Under the pieces are notes generated by a model that was not told where the DNA came from, searched no databases, and saw only the letters and a program-made list of their open reading frames with translations. A stretch of DNA of 20,859 nt from the IMG/VR virus record IMGVR_UViG_3300046804_001922, positions 1 to 20,859 of that record; one strand, written 5' to 3'. The position numbers and the translations under genes are program-made. Positions 2,646 through 18,058 of the stretch are shown piece by piece; within the stretch, counting starts at the first letter, position 1, and each line of letters starts with the position of its first letter. Source of the DNA: a virus.

Positions 2646-3291
2646 ACTAAAAAATATTTTAGAAGATTATAGTTCATGGTTTTTTAATAGTAACTACAAT
2701 GAAGAGCTTATTCCTACAGAGAAAAAAGATGATGATAGAAAAGGATTCTATGCAACATCTGATGAGTATCTTAAAGAAGCCCTAAAAGATCCTTTTAATT
2801 ATGGTTATCCAAGGCATATGTTTGGTGCTATAATGGAAAATAGAGTTGAACCAAGAGAATTGCAAGCAAAGAAGTATAGAGCTGCGTGTGATGAACTTGA
2901 TAAAAAACTTATTAATTATTTTGGTGCAAGAAATAATGCTTTAAGAGCTTATTATCCAGTTAATGGGTATATTGGTTGGCATAATAATGCTAATGCACCT
3001 GGTTATAATATTATTATAACGTGTAATCCTGAAGGTAATGGTGAATTTGTCCACTATGATATTAATACCAACACAATAATAACTTATCCCGATAAAAAAG
3101 GTTGGTTTGTTAAAGTTGGTTATTTCGGTTCATTTGAAGAGAAAGAAAAAATTTATTGGCATTGTGCAAGAACAAGATCACCAAGACTAACAGTCAGTTA
3201 TATAATTCCACATTTATCGATATGGGAATCTATGATTGATGATATTGGTATTCCGGATACGTCTCCACAAACAATCTGTAGTACTCTCTAG
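2617..3291 (+). CDS. 2-oxoglutarate/Fe(II)-oxygenase-like protein with an H-x-N motif
   Basis: 224 residues from the ATG at 2617, which overlaps the glycosyltransferase by 29 bases. The C-terminal half has the double-stranded beta-helix pattern: GYIGWHNNANAPGYNIIITC at 118-136 supplies H122 in the first metal-ligand position, and WHCARTRSPRLTVSYI at 181-196 supplies H182 and R190, the usual distal His and 2-oxoglutarate-binding Arg. The second ligand of the normal H-x-D is Asn (N124). From memory, GWHTNSN-type motifs are common in cyanophage homologues, so this may be a subfamily trait. Likely role: hydroxylation of a protein or glycan, if metal binding is retained. The 3' end overlaps a gene on the opposite strand by 62 bases. 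Confidence 0.65.
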   Translation: MQVISKINPELKNILEDYSSWFFNSNYNEELIPTEKKDDDRKGFYATSDEYLKEALKDPFNYGYPRHMFGAIMENRVEPRELQAKKYRAACDELDKKLINYFGARNNALRAYYPVNGYIGWHNNANAPGYNIIITCNPEGNGEFVHYDINTNTIITYPDKKGWFVKVGYFGSFEEKEKIYWHCARTRSPRLTVSYIIPHLSIWESMIDDIGIPDTSPQTICSTL

Positions 3292-3898
3292 AATAGAACT
3301 TCTTCATACTGTTTAATAAACAAATCTTTTTTTCTGGTTTATAATAACGAGTTTTTGTTTTTTCTTCACCATATACTCTTGAATAAAACCAGTCTTGTTG
3401 ATAATGATCAAACTCAAAATTCTTAAATAGAAAGTCATCATCACCAACATTCTTACACATGTGATAATCAGGATTTTCTATAAATTTTTGCCAGATATAT
3501 CCATCTCTGTTTGGATTTATAGACATAACGCTTGAGTTATAAGTATTATTCCATATCTCAGATTTTTTCCACCAAGCCTTTATTAGTGTTAATCTTGATT
3601 CATAGTTTAAAATATCATCAATGTTATTCTGAATAACTATATCTAAATCCATGTATGTAAAATTATTTAAAAGCATTATATCTTTATTGAATAGATAAAG
3701 TTTATTCCAATGACCCTCAAGATTATTATCTTTTGAAAAAGATATTATTTCAATGCTTCTGTTAATATTAAATGGGTTATCAGTCAAACAATATAGTTGA
3801 AACTGATGTGTAGTATTGTGTTTTATCATATACTCAAGCATATTAACATCTTCAGCTGAGTACATATCACCCCATTTTAAACAAACTATATTCTTCAT
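3230..3898 (-). CDS. Glycosyltransferase-like protein (paralogue of the gene at 4595-5317)
   Basis: 222 residues. The N-terminus (IVCLKWGDMYSAEDVNMLEYM) matches the N-terminus of the gene at 4595-5317 (VYCFKWGTKYGPEYVNRLLN). Both continue with a C-(L/I)-TD-(N/D)-P strand near residue 37-43, and then an acidic D-x-D: here YMDLDIVI with D84-L-D86. This is the order of a GT-A fold enzyme. A later VGDDDFLF (about 150-157) could be the second acidic element. It is the last gene of the leftward cassette. Its ATG overlaps the preceding stop by four bases (ATGA type). Predicted function is sugar transfer in a decoration pathway; donor and acceptor are unknown. Confidence 0.62.
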   Translation of the reverse strand: MKNIVCLKWGDMYSAEDVNMLEYMIKHNTTHQFQLYCLTDNPFNINRSIEIISFSKDNNLEGHWNKLYLFNKDIMLLNNFTYMDLDIVIQNNIDDILNYESRLTLIKAWWKKSEIWNNTYNSSVMSINPNRDGYIWQKFIENPDYHMCKNVGDDDFLFKNFEFDHYQQDWFYSRVYGEEKTKTRYYKPEKKICLLNSMKKFYSREYYRLFVETYPEYQYHQS

Positions 3899-4602
3899 AC
3901 TTTTCCTAACACTACATACACATTAGTTCCACAAACATTATATTTCTCAGCTAAAATAACTTCACTAAAGTTACATTGTTCAACTAAATCTTGAACACAA
4001 AAGGCAGTATTAACTTTTCTTCTTTCTTCATCTTCTTTTTGATTAAAAACTATTACATATTGATCTTTATTAAAGATATTAAGTTCATTTAGTATATAAA
4101 GATACTCGCTATATGGTATAATAACTAAACTATCATTTGTTATATCTCTAATATCTTCAAAATTAACATTTCTATTATAGAATTCAAAATCTATATTTTC
4201 AAAATATTTTGAAACAAATGAGTATGATGATTTAACTAATGGACTATAATCTATCAATTTAATTTTATTTGTTATACTACTATGTTTCTGTGTTTCAGAT
4301 GAAAGATTATTAATAAATGTAATTTCTATAAGCTCATTATCTTTTTTTACACTTTTTTTACTTGCATTTAACATATTTAAATCTGATACATATCTCGTAT
4401 TTAAAACGTCAAACATATAAAACGGAAGTCCACTTGCTACGAATGTAACATTTTGATTTTTGATAAAATCAAAATCTGTTAATATATTACTAAAAATTTT
4501 TGATCTTGCCTTTTCATAATCAGATAAAAATATCTTAAGTCTAGGTATTGCATACTTATTATTTTTTTCTATATTTTGTTTTAAACTGTTTATACTAAAC
4601 AT
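3895..4602 (-). CDS. Unknown protein between two glycosyltransferase-like genes
   Basis: 235 residues, Lys/Asn/Ile-rich and soluble. Alternating beta-like strands (NVTFVASG, LIEITFINN, IKLIDYSP, SLVIIPYSEY, YVIVFNQKE) and a terminal hairpin (VYVVLGKV) suggest a Rossmann-type alpha/beta fold, conceivably a divergent methyltransferase. However, I see no Gly-x-Gly-x-Gly loop and no catalytic motif, so I do not assign a function. It overlaps the upstream glycosyltransferase gene by eight bases and the downstream one by four, so it is almost certainly co-translated with both and probably serves the same pathway. Confidence 0.6.
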   Translation of the reverse strand: MFSINSLKQNIEKNNKYAIPRLKIFLSDYEKARSKIFSNILTDFDFIKNQNVTFVASGLPFYMFDVLNTRYVSDLNMLNASKKSVKKDNELIEITFINNLSSETQKHSSITNKIKLIDYSPLVKSSYSFVSKYFENIDFEFYNRNVNFEDIRDITNDSLVIIPYSEYLYILNELNIFNKDQYVIVFNQKEDEERRKVNTAFCVQDLVEQCNFSEVILAEKYNVCGTNVYVVLGKV

Positions 4603-5317
4603 CGTTTAATTTCCAAAGATTATTAGCCCATCCACCTGCTTCATGAAGTTCTTTTCCAATACCATGCGATGTATTAAATAAACAAAAATAATAATTATCT
4701 CTAAGAACTTCTGTTTTCATATCATCTCTATAATCTGCACCAAAATTATAAGCATAGACAACATTCTTTGGATGATATTTTAGTTTATCTCTAAAAATAC
4801 CAAATAAAGATTTATCAAAACTAGTAAAAAGAAAATTAATCTTTTTCTTATTATCTATATAAAATTTATAGAGATCTTCTAATTGATCATCTTGCCATGT
4901 TATAAATGAGCTGTTTATATCACACGCACCTTTATGAAAATATGCATCGCATTGATCAGGGTCAGCCCAATAGTTCTTAATAAATCTAGGTTCTTTAAAG
5001 TCATAATCATTTAAATAATCGGTAAAGTCCTTTAAACATAATAAATCAATATCAAATATTATATTTTTTCCATGGCCAATAAAGTTTGGATCAAAAAGTC
5101 TTAACTTTTCAATAGTAAAAATATTATTAAGGCCTGGTATTTTACTATCATTATAATCAATAATATTGATACTTTTATCAAGTCCAGTTGGATCATCGGT
5201 TATACATGTAAACATTACATTTCCTCCGTAATTTTTAAGAACAGAGTTTAGTAATCTATTAACATACTCGGGGCCATATTTTGTTCCCCATTTAAAACAA
5301 TAAACTTTAATATTCAT
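4595..5317 (-). CDS. Glycosyltransferase-like protein
   Basis: 240 residues. The N-terminal strand VYCFKWGTKYGPEYVN is shared with the paralogue at 3230-3898, followed by FTCITDDP (36-43) and the acidic motif IIFDIDLLCL with D89-I-D91, typical for metal and nucleotide-sugar binding in GT-A enzymes. A second feature, FNTSHGIGKELHEAGGWANN near the C-terminus, has a His that may complete the donor site. The start codon overlaps the stop of the radical SAM gene by one base (TAATG), which indicates translational coupling. Likely adds a sugar in the same product pathway as its neighbours. The sugar and acceptor are not evident. Confidence 0.65.
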   Translation of the reverse strand: MNIKVYCFKWGTKYGPEYVNRLLNSVLKNYGGNVMFTCITDDPTGLDKSINIIDYNDSKIPGLNNIFTIEKLRLFDPNFIGHGKNIIFDIDLLCLKDFTDYLNDYDFKEPRFIKNYWADPDQCDAYFHKGACDINSSFITWQDDQLEDLYKFYIDNKKKINFLFTSFDKSLFGIFRDKLKYHPKNVVYAYNFGADYRDDMKTEVLRDNYYFCLFNTSHGIGKELHEAGGWANNLWKLNDV

Positions 5318-5949
5318 TATACACTACTATATGATGATATCAAAGATCTATCTGTTGGAAGATAAGGATCTGAAGGACCATCCCATCTAGAAGATTTCTT
5401 AATTTCGAAAGTTATACCAATATTATCTGCCAAGTTCCTAGCTTCTTCTAGTTGATGCTCATTGGTTTTAAATGGTATAAAAACCCAACGAGATCTAAAC
5501 TTATAGTTCTTGGTTATTTTCATAACTTCAATTATTTGATCATGATCTTCTGGAGTCATGTTAACTCTATAAAGACCAGCTGTATCTCTTAAACCATCAA
5601 CAGAAAAAATAACTTCATCTCTTTCTTTTAACATTGAAAAGAAAGTTTTCCACCAATCAATTGTTTTTCCTGAACCATTAGTATGAATCTTAATAGCTTT
5701 ATTATTATCTTTAAATAATTTAATAATTTCTATAAATTTTGGATGATATATTGGATCACCGTATGTTCCGCAGAACATAAAACTTTCATAGAAACTTTCT
5801 GCATACATTTTACATGCTTCTATCGACAGATCTTGACGTGTTAATTCACCCTTTTTAACAAGTATAGTTCTAATACATTTAGGACAAGAAATCCTACATC
5901 TATTTGTAAGTTCAATATGAATACTATTTCTCATAGCGAAGTATCTCAT
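5317..5949 (-). CDS. Radical SAM protein lacking its own C-terminal SPASM-like part
   Basis: 210 residues. HIELTNRCRISCPKC carries the C-x3-C-x2-C cluster motif (C18, C22, C25) that binds the [4Fe-4S] cluster and S-adenosylmethionine. The GGE-like SAM contact appears as FCGTYGDP (59-66), and strand residues such as IHTNG and VIFSVDG follow the TIM-barrel order. The protein ends at about residue 210, right after SSRWDGPSDPYLPTD, where SPASM-type relatives usually continue into an auxiliary-cluster domain. That domain appears as a separate gene immediately upstream (5924-6262). Start choice is uncertain: ATG at 5949 (26-base overlap) or at 5934 (M6, 11-base overlap). Chemistry is probably radical modification of a peptide or sugar; the substrate is unknown. 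Confidence 0.8.
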   Translation of the reverse strand: MRYFAMRNSIHIELTNRCRISCPKCIRTILVKKGELTRQDLSIEACKMYAESFYESFMFCGTYGDPIYHPKFIEIIKLFKDNNKAIKIHTNGSGKTIDWWKTFFSMLKERDEVIFSVDGLRDTAGLYRVNMTPEDHDQIIEVMKITKNYKFRSRWVFIPFKTNEHQLEEARNLADNIGITFEIKKSSRWDGPSDPYLPTDRSLISSYSSV

Positions 5950-6262
5950 GGTTATGACTTGTATTTTTTGAAGCGTTTACACCACATTTTTTTTGACAGC
6001 ATTTTGGTGCATCATAGTATGACTTAGAAATATAATTTAACCACTCTAAGTATTTTAGATCCAAATGAAACGCATGTATATCATTTGTTTCATTTATATT
6101 ATATCTATCATCATTGAAAATAGATGCTTCGTATTGATGACCATGTGTCGGAAACACACAACATGGTAACCATCTACCATTTGCTGCAACAAAATGTTCA
6201 GAATTATTTCTGCATTTTGGTATTATTTTTTTTTGTTGTTGCTCCTCATCATCATATTCCAT
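5924..6262 (-). CDS. Small Cys-rich SPASM-like protein, detached from its radical SAM partner
   Basis: 112 residues with a good Shine-Dalgarno (GGAG, seven bases before the ATG). After an acidic/Gln start come KC (C17), then VAANGRWLPCCVF (C34, C35), and near the C-terminus KCCQKKC (C88, C89, C93). A Cys followed by a strand ending in PCC and a C-terminal C-x3-C is the pattern of the SPASM/twitch extension that binds auxiliary iron-sulfur clusters in radical SAM enzymes. It is translated just before, and overlapping, the gene for a radical SAM core that lacks this part. The likely product is a separate subunit working with that core. The alternatives are a degraded remnant of a second radical SAM gene, or an unrelated zinc-binding protein. 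Confidence 0.6.
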   Translation of the reverse strand: MEYDDEEQQQKKIIPKCRNNSEHFVAANGRWLPCCVFPTHGHQYEASIFNDDRYNINETNDIHAFHLDLKYLEWLNYISKSYYDAPKCCQKKCGVNASKNTSHNHEILRYEK

Positions 6263-6263
6263 A

Positions 6264-6968
6264 TTAAATCTCCATATTATAAAAACACATTAGTGTCCTA
6301 AAATCAGGATCACCTTCACCACTTTGTGGTAATAATTGTATAGCTTTAATATATTCACTAACAGGATCTTTAGTAATATCTATATCAAGTTTTTTACTAA
6401 AAAACGAATTTGTTGGAGCATACAATGGGTAATCACAATTATTAATAAATTTTTTGATATTAAACTGCTGTTTATTAAATTCTTTTTTAAGATCTTTGTT
6501 TTTATACCAATCATACTTTGGATAAGTTATATCAAAACCACCAGCACTATGCCACCACTCTAAACATTCTTCAATTGGTTGTTTTACTACAAATATTATT
6601 TTACTTGTTGGGAAGTTTTCAATAAGCCAGTCTAAAGAATAAGCTAGAGAATGACTCTTGATTAAGTAATTTCTAAAGTCATCATGTTCTGTAAACGCTT
6701 TTGATATTTCTTTTTTAAAAGAAAATTTATTATAATAATCTTGAGGAGTCTCAAACTTATATCCAAACTCCATTCCAGTTCCAAAATAAGAACCTTGATG
6801 ATTCACTAGATGTGACCATGATTTACTATTTTTAATATAATATTCTCTCTCAGGAGAATGATCTGAGAGATTTAATAAAAGTTTTGGTGAGTGCTCTAAT
6901 ATTGATGCTATGCGAGACCAAGAGCTGCCTGGTGCACCAATAAAGAAAATAAGTTGATCATCTCTCAT
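6264..6968 (-). CDS. Sulfotransferase-like protein
   Basis: 234 residues. The N-terminus IFFIGAPGSSWSRIASIL places a P-loop-like GAPGSSWSR at 11-19, corresponding to the 5'-phosphosulfate-binding loop of PAPS sulfotransferases. KSH at 104-106 and SKIIFVVKQPIEECLEWWHS at about 122-141 occupy the position of the 3'-phosphate-binding strand, but Lys replaces the usual Arg of the RDP motif and the usual Ser is missing. The WWHxxGG segment is shared with the paralogue at 7609-8475. If active it would transfer sulfate from PAPS to a hydroxyl on a glycan or Tyr. One base separates its stop from the next gene. Family level is well supported; activity is not certain. Confidence 0.65.
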   Translation of the reverse strand: MRDDQLIFFIGAPGSSWSRIASILEHSPKLLLNLSDHSPEREYYIKNSKSWSHLVNHQGSYFGTGMEFGYKFETPQDYYNKFSFKKEISKAFTEHDDFRNYLIKSHSLAYSLDWLIENFPTSKIIFVVKQPIEECLEWWHSAGGFDITYPKYDWYKNKDLKKEFNKQQFNIKKFINNCDYPLYAPTNSFFSKKLDIDITKDPVSEYIKAIQLLPQSGEGDPDFRTLMCFYNMEI

Positions 6969-6992
6969 AATAAAAACAAATCAAAAAATATA

Positions 6993-7619
6993 TTAAGGAG
7001 CTGTGTACACTCTTGCCTTTAAAGCAGTATCTGCTGTTGTTGTCCCGGATAGATACGCAGTTTGGTCAAAATCATCATTGCTGGATGCACCAATACTTGA
7101 GAAGTATGTATCAATAAAATTAAGAGTTTCATACAAAGCATCTTCAATTTGTTGTGAAGTAAGTGTCTCATGTGGCTGACAATATAATCTTCTTCTTTTA
7201 GCAACTGCTTTTCTATCAATTGATCCAGTTAGAGAGTTATATTCATCAATATAATGTTGAATAACAGAGTTCATATCCTGATTTTTAACTAGAAAGAGTC
7301 TAGAACCAGATGGAAGATTATCCTTAAATGCCGAGATAAGACGACTTGTTGGTGTAAGACTATTATTAATAATTCTTAAACCATAATTAACTTCATCCTT
7401 TCCTGTGCAATCAAATAGAGTATTTGTTAAAGTTGATAATTGTCCTGCTTCAATAGCTGGGACATATACTTTACCACTTATAACATTTATATTCTGTAAA
7501 GCAAACGAATAGAGTCCATCTGACTGGTCTTCAACAATATCGGCAACAGTCGGGTGTTCAAGAATACCGTCTAATTCTTGAAATAATGGGTCGAATGTCA
7601 CAAAAGCATTAATTCTCAT
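6993..7619 (-). CDS. Unknown 208-residue protein within the decoration cassette
   Basis: I do not recognise this protein. It is 208 residues, soluble and Asp/Ser/Thr-rich, with no Cys motif, P-loop or membrane segment. Two extended stretches (VISGKVYVPAIEAGQLSTL and GSRLFLVKNQD) and a helical part around 120-185 are the visible features; the tail (DQTAYLSGTTTADTALKARV) is low-complexity. It looks more like a structural or scaffold-type protein than an enzyme. It begins with GGAG nine bases before the ATG and overlaps the upstream sulfotransferase-like gene by 11 bases. It separates the two sulfotransferase-like genes. A possible late octamer lies about 60 bases upstream, inside that gene. Confidence 0.6.
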   Translation of the reverse strand: MRINAFVTFDPLFQELDGILEHPTVADIVEDQSDGLYSFALQNINVISGKVYVPAIEAGQLSTLTNTLFDCTGKDEVNYGLRIINNSLTPTSRLISAFKDNLPSGSRLFLVKNQDMNSVIQHYIDEYNSLTGSIDRKAVAKRRRLYCQPHETLTSQQIEDALYETLNFIDTYFSSIGASSNDDFDQTAYLSGTTTADTALKARVYTAP

Positions 7620-8475
7620 CTGATCTTTCTCCGGATTCTATTATACCCTGTATGGTATTATACCAGTCTTTTCCATAACTATTTATAAGCATTTCATCGA
7701 CACCTAAAGACTGATGTCTTAATCTTATTTTGCTATTTATTATATCCAGACTCTCATTCAAATTATCATTAATATTAAGGTCAGGATTATATGCCCCAAC
7801 AACAGTTCCTATTGTATAATTCCCTCGGCTATATGCCAAATCATCTTCTGTTTCTTTTAATTCATTATAAAATGATAAGTCATTACCAAGTCCGAGATAA
7901 TTAATCAATGTATGAAAATCTTTAGTATTAAAAGATATCTTGTTTCTTTTCATAAAATCAAGCATTAATCTATTTTCAACACAGATTCTTTCATATAACC
8001 TCTCATTAGTTTCATACCAGGAATAATTTGGAAACTTGATATTCCATCCACCTACAAGATGCCACCATTTAAATGCTTCTTCATTTCCATTATACACAAA
8101 TATAAATTTGGCTTTAGGAAAATTATCTTTTAGCCAATCTAAATTATAAGAAAACCAATGTGATTTAATAATCTTAATTCCAGAATCAAAATCATCAAAC
8201 GCTGTAGAAACTTCTTGTATAAATGATTCTTTTGTTAACTTTTTTAAAAGATGAAAGTCCTCACCTATACCATTTCCTGGACCGAAGTAAGCAGACGAAT
8301 GCATACCAACCTTTTTTGTTTTACCATTTGGAAAGGTTGCTTCAGTACTATAAGTAGGAAACTTTTCTTTATCGCTTGAATTAATATCTTGATGATGTGA
8401 TAGAATACTTAATACTCTACTCCATTTACTACCAGGTGCACCTGTAGCAAATATTAAATCACTTCCATCTGTCAT
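7609..8475 (-). CDS. Sulfotransferase-like protein, divergent paralogue
   Basis: 288 residues from the ATG at 8475. This start forms an ATGA overlap with the preceding stop and aligns MTDGSDLIFATGAPGSKWSR with MRDDQLIFFIGAPGSSWSR of the paralogue at 6264-6968. Upstream alternatives are ATG at 8484 and TTG at 8490. The PAPS 5'-binding loop GAPGSKWSR is intact, as are KSH and the shared WWHxxGG. The expected 3'-phosphate strand reads AKFIFVYNGNEEAFKWWH, with Asn in place of both Arg and Pro of the RDP motif. The 70-residue C-terminal extension is absent from the shorter paralogue. The protein is either a sulfotransferase with altered cofactor contacts or a catalytically reduced partner of its paralogue. 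Confidence 0.62.
   Translation of the reverse strand: MTDGSDLIFATGAPGSKWSRVLSILSHHQDINSSDKEKFPTYSTEATFPNGKTKKVGMHSSAYFGPGNGIGEDFHLLKKLTKESFIQEVSTAFDDFDSGIKIIKSHWFSYNLDWLKDNFPKAKFIFVYNGNEEAFKWWHLVGGWNIKFPNYSWYETNERLYERICVENRLMLDFMKRNKISFNTKDFHTLINYLGLGNDLSFYNELKETEDDLAYSRGNYTIGTVVGAYNPDLNINDNLNESLDIINSKIRLRHQSLGVDEMLINSYGKDWYNTIQGIIESGERSDEN
7680..7687 (-). promoter_or_regulatory. Possible internal late promoter octamer on the minus strand
   Basis: The plus strand reads TATTTATA, giving TATAAATA on the minus strand inside the 3' end of the long sulfotransferase-like gene, about 60 bases before the start of the unknown 208-residue gene. It could provide late expression of the distal half of the cassette. 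A chance match is possible in AT-rich DNA. Confidence 0.25.
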
Positions 8476-9071
8476 TTCTGCCATATCCAAAAAAGCCTCA
8501 TATTAGTTCTGTGGTTCATACCTGTCTTTTCAGAAACTCTATCAATCCATTCATAATCAATTGACCCATCTCTTTTTAATCTATGAATAATATTTGGTTT
8601 AACTATTAATTTTAAGTTTAATGTGTCTGTCCAATATTGAACAAGCATTTCATTCCATCCATAATACATATCATCAGCATGTTCGTTCATATTTCCTCTA
8701 AAAACTGCTATACCATTTTTCTTTAAAACTCTTATCATTTCTTTTAATTGATGTTCTATAGTAATATCATCTCCAAAGTTAATACTACCATAACATAAAC
8801 AAGCATCAACAGTTTCATCATTATAAGGTAAGTGAGATATATCAGCTTTTATATCTGCTCTTCTGTTTGTTATATCAATACCTACTAAATTTTTAATATG
8901 ATCTTTATATTGGTTATCACCACATCCAAGATCTAATACTAGAGAAGGATTTAAATTATTAATTCTTTCTATAGTTTCTGTTCCACATCTCTCAAACTTA
9001 TTAATATCATGTGGTTTTCTTCTTAAATTTTTATCAAAAGCTCTTATTATATTTGAATTATTTTCTGACAT
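8472..9071 (-). CDS. Class I SAM-dependent methyltransferase
   Basis: 199 residues. Motif I is LVLDLGCGDNQY (44-55), the glycine loop that binds S-adenosylmethionine, followed by the acidic strand end VGID (motif II), a DISHLPY segment (motif III-like), and a DACLCYGSINFGDD motif IV region. The protein shares LDxGCGDN-x-YKD-x-IKNL and GS-x-NFG-x-D with the larger methyltransferase at 9840-10550, so the two are paralogues. The substrate is not evident; small-molecule, sugar or lipid O-/N-methylation are all possible. The start overlaps the 2OG oxygenase gene by 25 bases; the stop overlaps the sulfotransferase-like start (ATGA). Its co-translation with sugar and sulfate enzymes suggests a role in capping a glycan. 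Confidence 0.78.
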   Translation of the reverse strand: MSENNSNIIRAFDKNLRRKPHDINKFERCGTETIERINNLNPSLVLDLGCGDNQYKDHIKNLVGIDITNRRADIKADISHLPYNDETVDACLCYGSINFGDDITIEHQLKEMIRVLKKNGIAVFRGNMNEHADDMYYGWNEMLVQYWTDTLNLKLIVKPNIIHRLKRDGSIDYEWIDRVSEKTGMNHRTNMRLFWIWQK

Positions 9072-9850
9072 GTTCTAAGAAATTCCCAACTTTCAGCAGT
9101 CATAGTACCTGTTATATTAAGTGTCGGTCTTGGTTCATGACCAAAGTTACATGTTCCATGGGGAATATCTCTCCATGGCCATGTCATGCAATCACCACGT
9201 TTCCATGTTAAAAATTCATTTCCTTGTTTCCAAACTTGACCTTGTTTTTGATCATCTAAAAATATAATCACACGCATAAGTTTTCTTTGATCATGATCAC
9301 ATTCGGCAAACTGATTATAATCATCTCTTAGATTTCTAAGCAAACCACCAAAATTATCTAGATGCCAATAAAACATTTGACCTGGAAGTTGAACATCAAA
9401 CTTAACATTAGGCCCACCCTTTTTACCACCCGGGTGTTTGAATTTAAACATATCAACAATTTTCTGAATTTTTTCAGGCAATTCAAAGTGTCTTGTTCTA
9501 TTTAAAATAACATATTGATTTTCACCACCATCAACATTATAACCCCATTTTTTGAAGTCATTATATTCCATATTGTTATTATTATCTTTGCGTGGATCTG
9601 CTCTATAATCAAACGTCGCCGGTTCTGTTTGATTAATTAGTTGTTTTACTTCTTCGTCCCAATCACCCTCAAATCTACAAATTGGAATATGTGTTGGTGG
9701 AATACAATTTGTATCATCTATATTATCATCAAAATGATATAGAGATGTGGCTTTACAAAATTCAAACAATCCATTATAATCTTTATATGAAACAGGTGGT
9801 TTAGTTTTTAAATTCTTCCACTGTTCATATGGACTTTTATCAAACTTCAT
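9047..9850 (-). CDS. 2-oxoglutarate/Fe(II)-dependent oxygenase
   Basis: 267 residues from the ATG at 9850, chosen because GAGGA lies six bases before it; the frame is open to another ATG at 9868 (six residues longer). Metal-binding H-x-D is YWHLDNFGG (H163, D165 from the chosen start), the distal His is in WRDIPHGTCNFGHEPRPT (H231), and the 2-oxoglutarate-binding Arg is R241. Between them, RVIIFLDDQKQGQVW and EFLTWKRGDCMTWPW have the double-stranded beta-helix pattern. All ligands are intact, unlike the second oxygenase-like protein at 2617-3291. It lies between two related methyltransferases and overlaps both. Likely hydroxylates a peptide, sugar or small molecule in the cassette's pathway. 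Confidence 0.8.
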   Translation of the reverse strand: MKFDKSPYEQWKNLKTKPPVSYKDYNGLFEFCKATSLYHFDDNIDDTNCIPPTHIPICRFEGDWDEEVKQLINQTEPATFDYRADPRKDNNNNMEYNDFKKWGYNVDGGENQYVILNRTRHFELPEKIQKIVDMFKFKHPGGKKGGPNVKFDVQLPGQMFYWHLDNFGGLLRNLRDDYNQFAECDHDQRKLMRVIIFLDDQKQGQVWKQGNEFLTWKRGDCMTWPWRDIPHGTCNFGHEPRPTLNITGTMTAESWEFLRTCQKIIQI

Positions 9851-10550
9851 ATGAGTTCCTCTGCACAATTAAGAAATATCTTTCATCGCCTTGTTGATTT
9901 TCTTCTATAGCAAATCTGATTAACTTAAGATCATATATCTTAAAAAGTTCAAATATAAGTTCCTGTGTCCATGGAAACCAATCGATAAACATAAAGCTTG
10001 TCTTATCCTTCGGAATAGGTTTATGATCAATACCAGGATTAAATCTAAAATAGATATAACCTCCAGGCTTTGTCATGTCGACAATCTTCTCAAACATAGC
10101 TCTGATATGTTTTTCATCAGTTCCAAAATTGAGACTTCCGAGAGCTAAAACTTGATCATATGATTTCTTAGGTTGAAACTCTTCTAGTGTCTTCTTAATA
10201 TCTGCTGCTGGATGATAAGGATCTAAACCTTTTAAGTTCTTAATCTTATCTTTATAGTAATTATCACCACATCCTACATCGAGAACTGACTTAGGATTCT
10301 TTGAGTTTGCAAACTTAATTAAATATTTTCCAGATTCTGGATAGGAATGTTTAGATTTCCAAACACCAGAGAAGTACTTGGAAAGGTACAACTCATGCAT
10401 TTTTTCACAGAAATCAGCTAAATTTTCATACTTAGTAATATCAACCTCAAACATAAAATTATCATTGATCCATTCCTGGGTCAGATATTTCTTAAAGTTT
10501 TTATTGGTGATCTTTGGGAAATTAGTTTTGATATAATTAAAGATTTTCAT
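9840..10550 (-). CDS. Class I SAM-dependent methyltransferase, first gene of the leftward cassette
   Basis: 236 residues. Motif I is SVLDVGCGDNYYKD (88-101) and motif II ends GLDPYHPAADIK. A motif IV-like LALGSLNFGTD is followed by KPGGYIYFRFNPG (motif VI). The first 80 residues are an extra helical N-terminus absent from the smaller paralogue at 8472-9071. A TGGAG ribosome site lies five bases before the ATG. The minus-strand late octamer sits 34 bases upstream, so this is likely the first gene transcribed of the cassette. Substrate unknown. The stop overlaps the oxygenase start by 11 bases, which fits coupled translation. Confidence 0.8.
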   Translation of the reverse strand: MKIFNYIKTNFPKITNKNFKKYLTQEWINDNFMFEVDITKYENLADFCEKMHELYLSKYFSGVWKSKHSYPESGKYLIKFANSKNPKSVLDVGCGDNYYKDKIKNLKGLDPYHPAADIKKTLEEFQPKKSYDQVLALGSLNFGTDEKHIRAMFEKIVDMTKPGGYIYFRFNPGIDHKPIPKDKTSFMFIDWFPWTQELIFELFKIYDLKLIRFAIEENQQGDERYFLIVQRNSYEV

Positions 10551-15490: not shown

Positions 15491-18058
15491 ATGCCATTTC
15501 AAGTTAGTCCAGGCGTAAATGTTTCTGAAATTGACCTAACTACAGTTGTGCCTGCTGTATCTACCACAGAAGGTGCTATTGCAGGCGTCTTTAGATGGGG
15601 TCCTGTTGATCAAAGAGTTTTAATTGATTCAGAAAATTCACTAGTAAATCGTTTCGGTAAGCCTTATAGAAATATGGGTGAAGAAACATGGTTCACCGCA
15701 GCAAATTTCTTATCTTACGGTAATAAACTTTATGTTGTTAGAGTAGCCAATACAACATCAACAAATGATGCTATTGGTACATTAACAGCATTTGCAAACG
15801 TAGGTACAGTTGCATCACCAGAATCCCAGGTTGTTAAGAATGATGTGGATTATGAAGATAAGGATGGAACATTTGATACAGACGTTCTTTACGTAGCTAG
15901 ATATCCTGGTTCTATCGGTAATTCTCTAAAAATTTCAGTTTGCGATAGTTCTAACGCTTATAATTCAACTATCCAGTTATCAAATACTGAAAATGATTAT
16001 AGCGGTACATTCACTGCAAATTCATCAGGTCTATCAGTAACAATAGCGGCAAACAGCGTAACATTCAATACAAATACCGGTATTGATGCAAACGGTTTCT
16101 TCTCAATTGCTACAAACCCAATTGCAAATGGAACATACGTTAAGTATATCACTGCTGCAGGAAATACTGCTCCTACTGGTTTAACAAATAATTCACTATA
16201 TCTAGTTATTTCTTCAAATACCTCAGGTATCCAGTTAGGTAACACAAGCTACTTTGCTAATGCTGTTTCATTTAATGCAAATTCTGATGTTAATAATACT
16301 GATGAAACAATTGCTATTGCTTCAGCAAGCACAAAGTATGCAGTTGGTGATAAGGTTCAGTACATTGTTGCTGCTGGTAACACAGCCATTAGCGGTCTAT
16401 CTAATGGTTCATACTACTGGATTGCAACTGCTAACTCAACAACTGTTACTCTTGCAGCAACATATGGTGGTGCTAACGTTAACATCACAAAAGGTGCAAC
16501 AGAGTCTGGTCACTCACTTACAGCAGTTGAAAGACTGGTTGTTCCAACAGCAAAAGCAAGTTCAGAAAGTCATACATTTGTTGCTTGGAGTTTAGCTCAG
16601 ACAGCTATCCTGTCACTTTCTTCTTCAATTACAACCGGCGATTTAATTAAGGTTGGTAACTCAACTGTCGGCGAACAGTATATGAAAGTTAGTGCGGTTG
16701 GTACTAATGTAACTGCAACAAATACATCACTCACTATTGATATATCAACAGAAGATAATTACAGACTTAAGTCTGCTTATACTTCAAACACAATTGATCG
16801 TTACTGGGAATTCTACAATGTAGTTGATAGAGCACCTGGACAGTCAGAATATGTTGCTTCTTTTGGTAATACTTCTGCTAACGATGAAGTTCATGTTGTT
16901 ATTGTTGATGAAGATGGCAAGTTTACTGAAACACCTGGTCAGATTTTAGAAGTTTATAAGAATCTTTCTAGAGCCGATGACGCTAAAACAGCAGATGGTG
17001 CTGCACGTTACTATAAGACTGTTATTAATGAACAGTCAAAATATATTTGGTGGGCAAATGATAGAAGCGGTGCTGCAACAGCACAGGCTGCATCTATTGC
17101 AAGTTCAACAAATGAAACTCCATTAAGTCTTTCATTTGAAGGTGCTACTGGTGGTTATAATGAACTTAATGCACCATTATCTTTAATTGCTGGAGGTTAC
17201 GATCTATTTGCTTCAGCAGAAGATGTTGATGTTTCGCTTATCCTACAGGGTAAAGCTAAATCAAATGCAACTCTCGCAAACTATATAATCGACAATATTT
17301 GCGAAGTAAGAAAAGACTGCGTAGCTTTCGTTTCACCACTTAAGAATGATGTTGTTAATAATATTGGTGGAGAACTTGATTCAGTTCTTGCATTTAAGAA
17401 CAGCGTAAGAAGTTCTTCATACGCTGTTGTTGATTCTGGTTATAAGTATCAGTACGATAAGTACAATGATGTTTATCGTTGGGTACCATTAAACGGTGAT
17501 ATCGCTGGTCTTTGTGTTCGCACAGATAATACAAATGATCCATGGTGGTCACCAGCTGGTTTCAATCGTGGTAATATCAAGAACATCGTAAAACTTGCAT
17601 ATAACCCAGGCAAAGCTGATAGAGATCAGTTATACAAAGCTGGTGTAAACCCAGTTGTTGCATTCCCTGGACAAGGAATTGTATTGTTCGGTGATAAGAC
17701 TGCTCTTAATAAGCCATCAGCGTTTGACAGAATCAATGTAAGACGTCTATTCATTGTTCTAGAAAAGGCAATTGCTACGGCTGCTAAGTTTACTCTATTC
17801 GAATTCAACGATGAATTCACTAGAGCACAGTTCAGAAACTTAGTTATTCCTTATCTGAGAGATATTAAAGGTCGTCGTGGTATCACTGACTTCTTAGTTG
17901 TTTGTGATCAGACAAACAACACAGCTGAAGTTATTGATCGTAACGAGTTTGTTGGTGATATTTACATTAAGCCAGCTCGTTCAATCAACTTCATTCAGTT
18001 GAACTTCGTTGCTGTTAGAACTGGTGTCGCATTCTCAGAAATAGTTGGCAAGTTCTAA
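15491..18058 (+). CDS. 18: Tail sheath protein gp18, enlarged by an insertion
   Basis: 855 residues against 659 in T4. The N-terminus MPFQVSPGVNVSEIDLTTVV, then VFRWGPVDQRVLIDSENSL and FLSYGNKLYVVRVAN, and the C-terminal EFNDEFTRAQFRNLVIPYLR with RSINFIQLNFVAVRTGVAF, are conserved parts of T4-like contractile sheath. The extra length lies after residue about 160: an Asn/Thr/Ser-rich, beta-like region to about 430 that holds a duplicated module (see the repeat entry). In T4, protruding sheath domains face the outside, so the insert probably decorates the tail surface. Likely the most abundant tail protein; its strong promoter and ribosome site agree. Ends before gp19. Confidence 0.92.
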   Translation: MPFQVSPGVNVSEIDLTTVVPAVSTTEGAIAGVFRWGPVDQRVLIDSENSLVNRFGKPYRNMGEETWFTAANFLSYGNKLYVVRVANTTSTNDAIGTLTAFANVGTVASPESQVVKNDVDYEDKDGTFDTDVLYVARYPGSIGNSLKISVCDSSNAYNSTIQLSNTENDYSGTFTANSSGLSVTIAANSVTFNTNTGIDANGFFSIATNPIANGTYVKYITAAGNTAPTGLTNNSLYLVISSNTSGIQLGNTSYFANAVSFNANSDVNNTDETIAIASASTKYAVGDKVQYIVAAGNTAISGLSNGSYYWIATANSTTVTLAATYGGANVNITKGATESGHSLTAVERLVVPTAKASSESHTFVAWSLAQTAILSLSSSITTGDLIKVGNSTVGEQYMKVSAVGTNVTATNTSLTIDISTEDNYRLKSAYTSNTIDRYWEFYNVVDRAPGQSEYVASFGNTSANDEVHVVIVDEDGKFTETPGQILEVYKNLSRADDAKTADGAARYYKTVINEQSKYIWWANDRSGAATAQAASIASSTNETPLSLSFEGATGGYNELNAPLSLIAGGYDLFASAEDVDVSLILQGKAKSNATLANYIIDNICEVRKDCVAFVSPLKNDVVNNIGGELDSVLAFKNSVRSSSYAVVDSGYKYQYDKYNDVYRWVPLNGDIAGLCVRTDNTNDPWWSPAGFNRGNIKNIVKLAYNPGKADRDQLYKAGVNPVVAFPGQGIVLFGDKTALNKPSAFDRINVRRLFIVLEKAIATAAKFTLFEFNDEFTRAQFRNLVIPYLRDIKGRRGITDFLVVCDQTNNTAEVIDRNEFVGDIYIKPARSINFIQLNFVAVRTGVAFSEIVGKF
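16097..16522 (+). repeat. Duplicated beta-rich module inside gp18
   Basis: Two copies lie 72 residues apart (G224 and G296 are equivalent). Copy one reads VKYITAAGNTAPTGLTNNSL then YLVISSNTSGIQLG; copy two reads VQYIVAAGNTAISGLSNGSY then YWIATANSTTVTLA and ends GHSLT. Shared core: V-x-YI-x-AAGNTA-x-(T/S)GL-x-N-x-S-x-Y. Similar AGNTA-x-GL-x-N modules occur in several phage surface and fibre proteins as I recall. The copies span roughly gp18 residues 203-344. Confidence 0.7.

Follow-up and report, generated by a model that had tools for sequence, protein, structure and literature searches.

The window, which is the whole stretch of DNA that was analyzed, is a 20.9-kb IMG/VR fragment of a marine T4-like virus, with T4-like genes for neck, tail sheath stabilizer, terminase, sheath, tube and portal proteins. 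A modification island is inserted in this structural module. It contains a glycosyltransferase-like gene, two sulfotransferase-like genes, two methyltransferase genes, an HxD-type oxygenase gene (recognized by eye) and a pair of overlapping genes, here called C and T. The features at the locus are as follows:

3230..10550, minus strand: modification island inserted in the T4-like structural module (open reading frames, profile matches and partly by eye)
4595..5317, minus strand: gene for a 240-aa protein which resembles a glycosyltransferase (by eye), in the same operon, 1-nt overlap with the stop of C
5317..5949, minus strand: C, radical SAM core of 210 aa without auxiliary extension (PF04055)
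5924..5949, minus strand: overlap between the end of T and the beginning of C, 26 nt if C starts at its first Met (open reading frame coordinates)
5924..6262, minus strand: T, free-standing twitch/SPASM-like auxiliary-cluster protein of 112 aa (match to a profile HMM of fused tails only)
6264..6968, minus strand: sulfotransferase-like gene (234 aa), upstream in the same operon (a PF13469 match at E 7e-4 that falls short of the curated cut-off)

The original prediction of a core-only radical SAM gene with an overlapping, cysteine-rich gene upstream was borne out by the open reading frames and the PF04055 match. The 240-aa protein had no match in Pfam or NCBIfam. Its gene is conserved in the same position in two relatives (L010 and L013), in which the 234-aa sulfotransferase-like gene, whose stop lies 1 nt ahead of the T start, is also conserved upstream. 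The two sulfotransferase-like genes of the window (6264-6968 and 7609-8490, minus strand) have the start motif GAPGSxWSR in common, and a 208-aa gene sits between them. On the plus strand, the window encodes a tail-fiber-like protein with many GSYTGNYTGTF-type repeats (284-1492), which is 402 aa long compared to 315 aa in L010. In a tail sheath protein of 855 aa (15491-18058, plus strand) the conserved sheath domains are confined to the two termini, which suggests a long central insertion.

Layout of the Gene Pair

The reading frame of C is +1 relative to that of T. The start of C, and hence the length of the overlap, is uncertain because relative L013 lacks Met1 and a Met six codons into C (Met6, 5934) is conserved; a start at this alternative position would give an 11-nt overlap. 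The frame of C is also open for 9 codons 5' of its ATG, which results in a double frame of ~53 nt. Such a double frame could accommodate programmed +1 frameshifting in the overlap, giving a single T-C chain similar to the fused T-first chains known in the NCBIfam family NF033640. We regard frameshifting as very unlikely, since the domains of other T-first pairs are mostly ~65-110 nt apart, no obvious slippery site is common to four aligned overlaps, and both genes have plausible starts.

The T-then-C order is kept in six other contigs at 80-88% identity. Between close relatives dN/dS was ~0.01-0.18 across the two genes (0.01-0.18 for T and 0.06-0.14 for C), which shows that selection on both is strongly purifying. 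Because the order is kept in six relatives and dN/dS is low, a sequencing artefact can be dismissed as the source of the arrangement.

C Is a Radical SAM Core

Protein C matched PF04055 over residues 12-169 (E 8.4e-11; 42.8 bits compared to a cut-off of 29.5). It contains the cluster motif C18-x3-C22-x2-C25, of which the three cysteines are invariant in the family alignment, so that both the CX3CX2C motif and the radical SAM domain that characterize the superfamily are present. The protein ends ~25-40 residues past the barrel. Sequence searches of the PDB with C and with a T profile gave no match.

T Resembles a Detached Auxiliary-Cluster Segment

Viral contigs were scanned with a core profile to collect relatives, and three kinds were obtained: single-chain (fused) proteins with a cysteine-rich tail, cores ending at ~200-220 residues, and pairs like that of the window. 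A profile HMM built solely from the C-terminal tails of the fused relatives matched the window T with an E value of 2.4e-10, and it also matched small genes beside other short cores. This match identifies T as a homolog of the auxiliary-cluster extension found at the C terminus of full-length C relatives, in agreement with the proposal that the small upstream gene encodes the missing extension.

The window T is at most ~30% identical to T proteins outside its own close relatives. It was not matched by PF13186 (SPASM) or by any other profile in Pfam, PHROG or NCBIfam (the latter at E up to 1), and tblastn against phage records at E up to 1 gave nothing. This lack of a direct family-profile match would suit a zinc-ribbon protein or a regulator that has no relation to the enzyme. 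That explanation is highly improbable and largely refuted by the homology of T to the fused tails and by the match of PF13186 to 53 of the 68 aligned T domains (best E 3.4e-8). The matches common to many T members were to SPASM or radical SAM families, and not to an unrelated zinc protein. NF033640 was matched by 16 of the 68 domains; for the two T genes that matched it in G003, the alignment spans the first 76 positions of the family.

SPASM and twitch auxiliary domains have a CX9-15GX4C motif followed by a later Cys pair, and full SPASM domains, which hold two auxiliary clusters, have a seven-cysteine motif. The pattern in T is C17-X11-G29-X4-C34-C35 ... C89-X3-C93, which conforms to the former motif and corresponds to the initial half of the SPASM motif followed by a single Cys pair. 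P33, C34, C35, C89 and C93 do not vary across the 68 aligned T domains, and P15, C17 and G29 hardly vary. Since there are ~5 conserved cysteines and not seven, "twitch-like" suits T better than SPASM, and from the resemblance to a twitch domain one auxiliary cluster would be expected. The predicted SPASM-like half was therefore right in its homology to an auxiliary extension, and is better described as twitch-like. An auxiliary domain C-terminal to the barrel in the same chain is not what is found here, as T is a separate upstream gene. A structure model of the window T had no PDB match by Foldseek, but because the model was weak (pLDDT 68.6), the lack of a match carries no information about the fold.

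Split Cores Are Frequent Among Ocean Virus Fragments

In an enlarged set of IMG/VR loci, a T gene was located within 2 kb of 151 of the 153 distinct short cores, and the remaining two cores sit at contig edges. A neighboring T gene is thus almost universal among core relatives that likewise end at about residue 210. By position, 74 distinct cores have T upstream of them and 90 have it downstream, with array members entered in both counts. After clustering at 80% identity, 87 core clusters were obtained, consisting of 36 with C-T order, 20 with T-C order, 15 fused, three array members flanked by T on either side, two spaced pairs and 11 without a recognized T, most of which have long divergent tails. 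These proportions are biased towards split genes because the queries were mostly short cores. The split order of the window, which the original prediction had proposed to look for elsewhere, is accordingly present both in the six close contigs and in further T-C clusters.

Tandem C-T-C-T arrays were found in L044, L067, L084 and L148-L152, and other arrays consist of four T-C pairs (L193) or three C-T pairs (L101). The array copies in L193 and L101 are apparently divergent and not recent repeats. For cellular relatives, genome contigs gave one match only, to a Pelagibacter MAG contig which may be phage. Two-gene C/T enzymes, in either order, occur in many ocean virus fragments and look like an overlooked widespread design.

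C and T Are Inherited Together

The distance matrices of C and T correlate with r 0.78 over 71 pairs and r 0.84 over the 20 T-first pairs, and none of 2000 permutations reached such values. C and T are co-inherited whichever gene leads. The correlation alone is no proof of contact because linked genes would also give correlated trees.

T might instead serve several radical SAM cores, or transfer electrons in trans, and not be a dedicated subunit of the adjacent C. In L119, L120 and L123 the gene of another radical SAM family lies between T and C, and at some loci the numbers of T and C are unequal (T T C in L205, L233 and L237). The 167-kb close relative G001 has three further N-terminal-twitch radical SAM proteins, each a single chain (48459-49538, 56857-58050 and 95810-96916). 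Such a role is nevertheless unlikely, as practically every short core has its own T nearby, C and T distances correlate closely, and one T per C is kept in the arrays of L044, L067, L084 and L193. We infer that C and T are two subunits of one radical SAM enzyme, a reading also favored by the presence of just one free T, that of the pair, in G001.

Origin of the Gene Order

In the T tree, the window groups with the fused proteins of L021, L025 and L032 (support 83) and of L023, L029 and L271 (support 81). In the C tree, holding the window together with these same fused proteins raised the likelihood over that of the free tree (p-AU 0.776). As both trees point there, descent of the window pair from a fused C-T ancestor has moderate support. 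A single origin of the T-first order was rejected (p-AU 3.8e-5). L068 (T-C) and L077 (C-T) form a sister pair in the T tree as well as in the C tree, a clear independent change of order. The trees show that order and fusion state changed several more times elsewhere in the C/T family.

A tandem duplication followed by two partial deletions is one route by which the order could change, and the tandem C-T-C-T arrays and the T-C array in L193 are possible intermediates of it. Remnants of a second C or T were not detected in the window at E 0.01. In L113, L119, L121 and L126 cassettes encoding a DegT aminotransferase, a MoaA-like radical SAM protein, a carbamoyltransferase and an N_Twi_rSAM protein trade places around C and T. 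Since whole cassettes swap at these loci, ordinary shuffling is enough to account for changes in order, and plain cassette shuffling fits L068, L119 and L121 equally well as tandem duplication with two partial deletions. A broader reading, in which marine T4-like phages have a modular radical SAM toolkit whose detachable auxiliary subunit was repeatedly fused, split and re-ordered and may be interchangeable among cores, with its cluster acting in trans, is conceivable and in our view doubtful.

Structure and Proposed Mechanism

The fused relative L032 was modeled with AlphaFold2 at a mean pLDDT of 81.5; the core was modeled well, and residues 202-222, 246-256 and 287-300 poorly. The model aligned nearly end to end with BlsE, DesII, SuiB, SkfB, PqqE, MoaA and BtrN (Z 13.8-17.6, rmsd 3.7-4.6, 210-270 residues). 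The fold that L032 has in common with these SPASM/twitch enzymes does not identify the reaction.

Taken as a whole, the data are best explained by C and T forming a two-subunit twitch radical SAM enzyme with one auxiliary cluster, to which we assign a probability of about 0.8. By analogy with the superfamily, a [4Fe-4S] cluster on C18, C22 and C25 of C would bind SAM and give rise to a 5'-deoxyadenosyl radical. T would hold an auxiliary [4Fe-4S] cluster on C17, C34 (or C35), C89 and C93, and would dock on the open barrel end of C, which is the site of the C-terminal extension in the single-chain relatives. As in BtrN, SuiB and MoaA, the auxiliary cluster could accept an electron from the substrate radical or serve as its binding site. 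The gene overlap suggests that C and T are co-translated, and both trees are consistent with an origin of the window pair from a fused C-T gene that was split and re-ordered.

Well-studied SPASM/twitch enzymes carry the auxiliary cluster in the same chain as the core, and the role of this cluster is still debated. In a natural two-protein enzyme the auxiliary cluster could be added, withheld or swapped without mutating the core. The role of the cluster would be directly testable here, because the two-protein version separates it from the core.

Comparison to Known Systems

For C as well as for T, the closest known systems are the fused phage radical SAM-twitch proteins (L021, L025, L032, L023 and L029, together with L271, which lies in a Pelagibacter MAG). 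They have the same core and auxiliary segment, but in one chain with C before T, whereas the window has two genes with T first. The same two-gene split is present in an isolated virus, Pelagibacter phage Mosig EXVC030M, as Mosig_00084 and Mosig_00085. The order there is C then T, compared to T then C in the window, and identities are 33% over 209 columns (C versus Mosig_00084) and ~20% (T versus Mosig_00085). In the record, Mosig_00084 is called a "molybdenum cofactor biosynthesis enzyme" and Mosig_00085 a hypothetical protein, so that the split goes unmarked; Mosig_00085 was recognized as T by gene position and then by profile. Many short phage genes annotated as "radical SAM" or "hypothetical" are probably, as in Mosig, halves of one enzyme.

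NF033640 (N_Twi_rSAM) has the twitch before the core, as in the window, but is a single chain of ~400 aa and not two genes. The pair does not belong to this family, for which a single chain scoring above 170 bits is expected: C reached 20.3 bits, far under that cut-off, and T was unmatched. The order that the original prediction called swapped is indeed the reverse of that in the closest fused relatives; since single-chain T-first proteins exist in NF033640, it is unusual and not unheard of.

The structural neighbors of the fused relative, auxiliary segment included, are the twitch enzymes BtrN and MoaA and further SuiB, PqqE, anSME, SkfB, BlsE and DesII. In contrast to the window pair, all are single chains with a C-terminal auxiliary domain and known substrates. 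GeoRSP_SPASM (NCBIfam TIGR04304, 293 positions) is a SPASM protein encoded apart from a radical SAM partner. It did not match the window T (NCBIfam, E up to 1), and the name of the partner family, GeoRSP_rSAM, already includes radical SAM/SPASM, unlike the core-only C. BtrN and MoaA have one auxiliary cluster each (PMC9012708).

The occurrence of several radical SAM genes in one phage has already been described (PMC5332604; PMC2853527; PMC7029224). Papers describing SPASM radical SAM enzymes that are split or free-standing were not found in the open-access library searched, and a phage radical SAM enzyme whose twitch/SPASM domain has a gene of its own is apparently undescribed. The earlier statement that no phage case is known holds in this sense, but this phage is not alone in having the split, which recurs in Mosig and in IMG/VR.

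Genomic Neighborhood and Likely Function

Of the neighbors of other C/T pairs that were identified, DegT sugar aminotransferases belong to the most frequent, as do additional radical SAM genes (13/89 and 6/81 neighbor proteins). A DegT partner is absent from G001. DegT and radical SAM genes side by side recall the DesI/DesII and BtrN pathways. In pelagimyophages, radical SAM cassettes occur in a hypervariable region, and glycosyltransferases were proposed to alter the host surface (PMC7029224). A surface-sugar role is favored because of the glycosyltransferase-, sulfotransferase- and methyltransferase-like neighbors in the window, the DegT genes beside other pairs and this published proposal. 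From the neighboring genes we assign, with modest confidence, a role in sugar or surface modification to the C/T pair, in which the enzyme would probably oxidize or rearrange a sugar or other small molecule.

The split pairs lie in variable islands, and the fused genes of L021 and L023 in a replication module: in L021 (1310-4644) and L023 (2995-6326) the fused core-twitch gene is located between DnaG-like primase and DnaB-like helicase genes. Fusions to carbamoyltransferase-like domains were also observed, with a radical SAM core in L043 (3923-6295, 790 aa) and with N_Twi_rSAM-type proteins in L105 (1324-4221) and L119 (3994-6900), the latter proteins being ~966 aa long.
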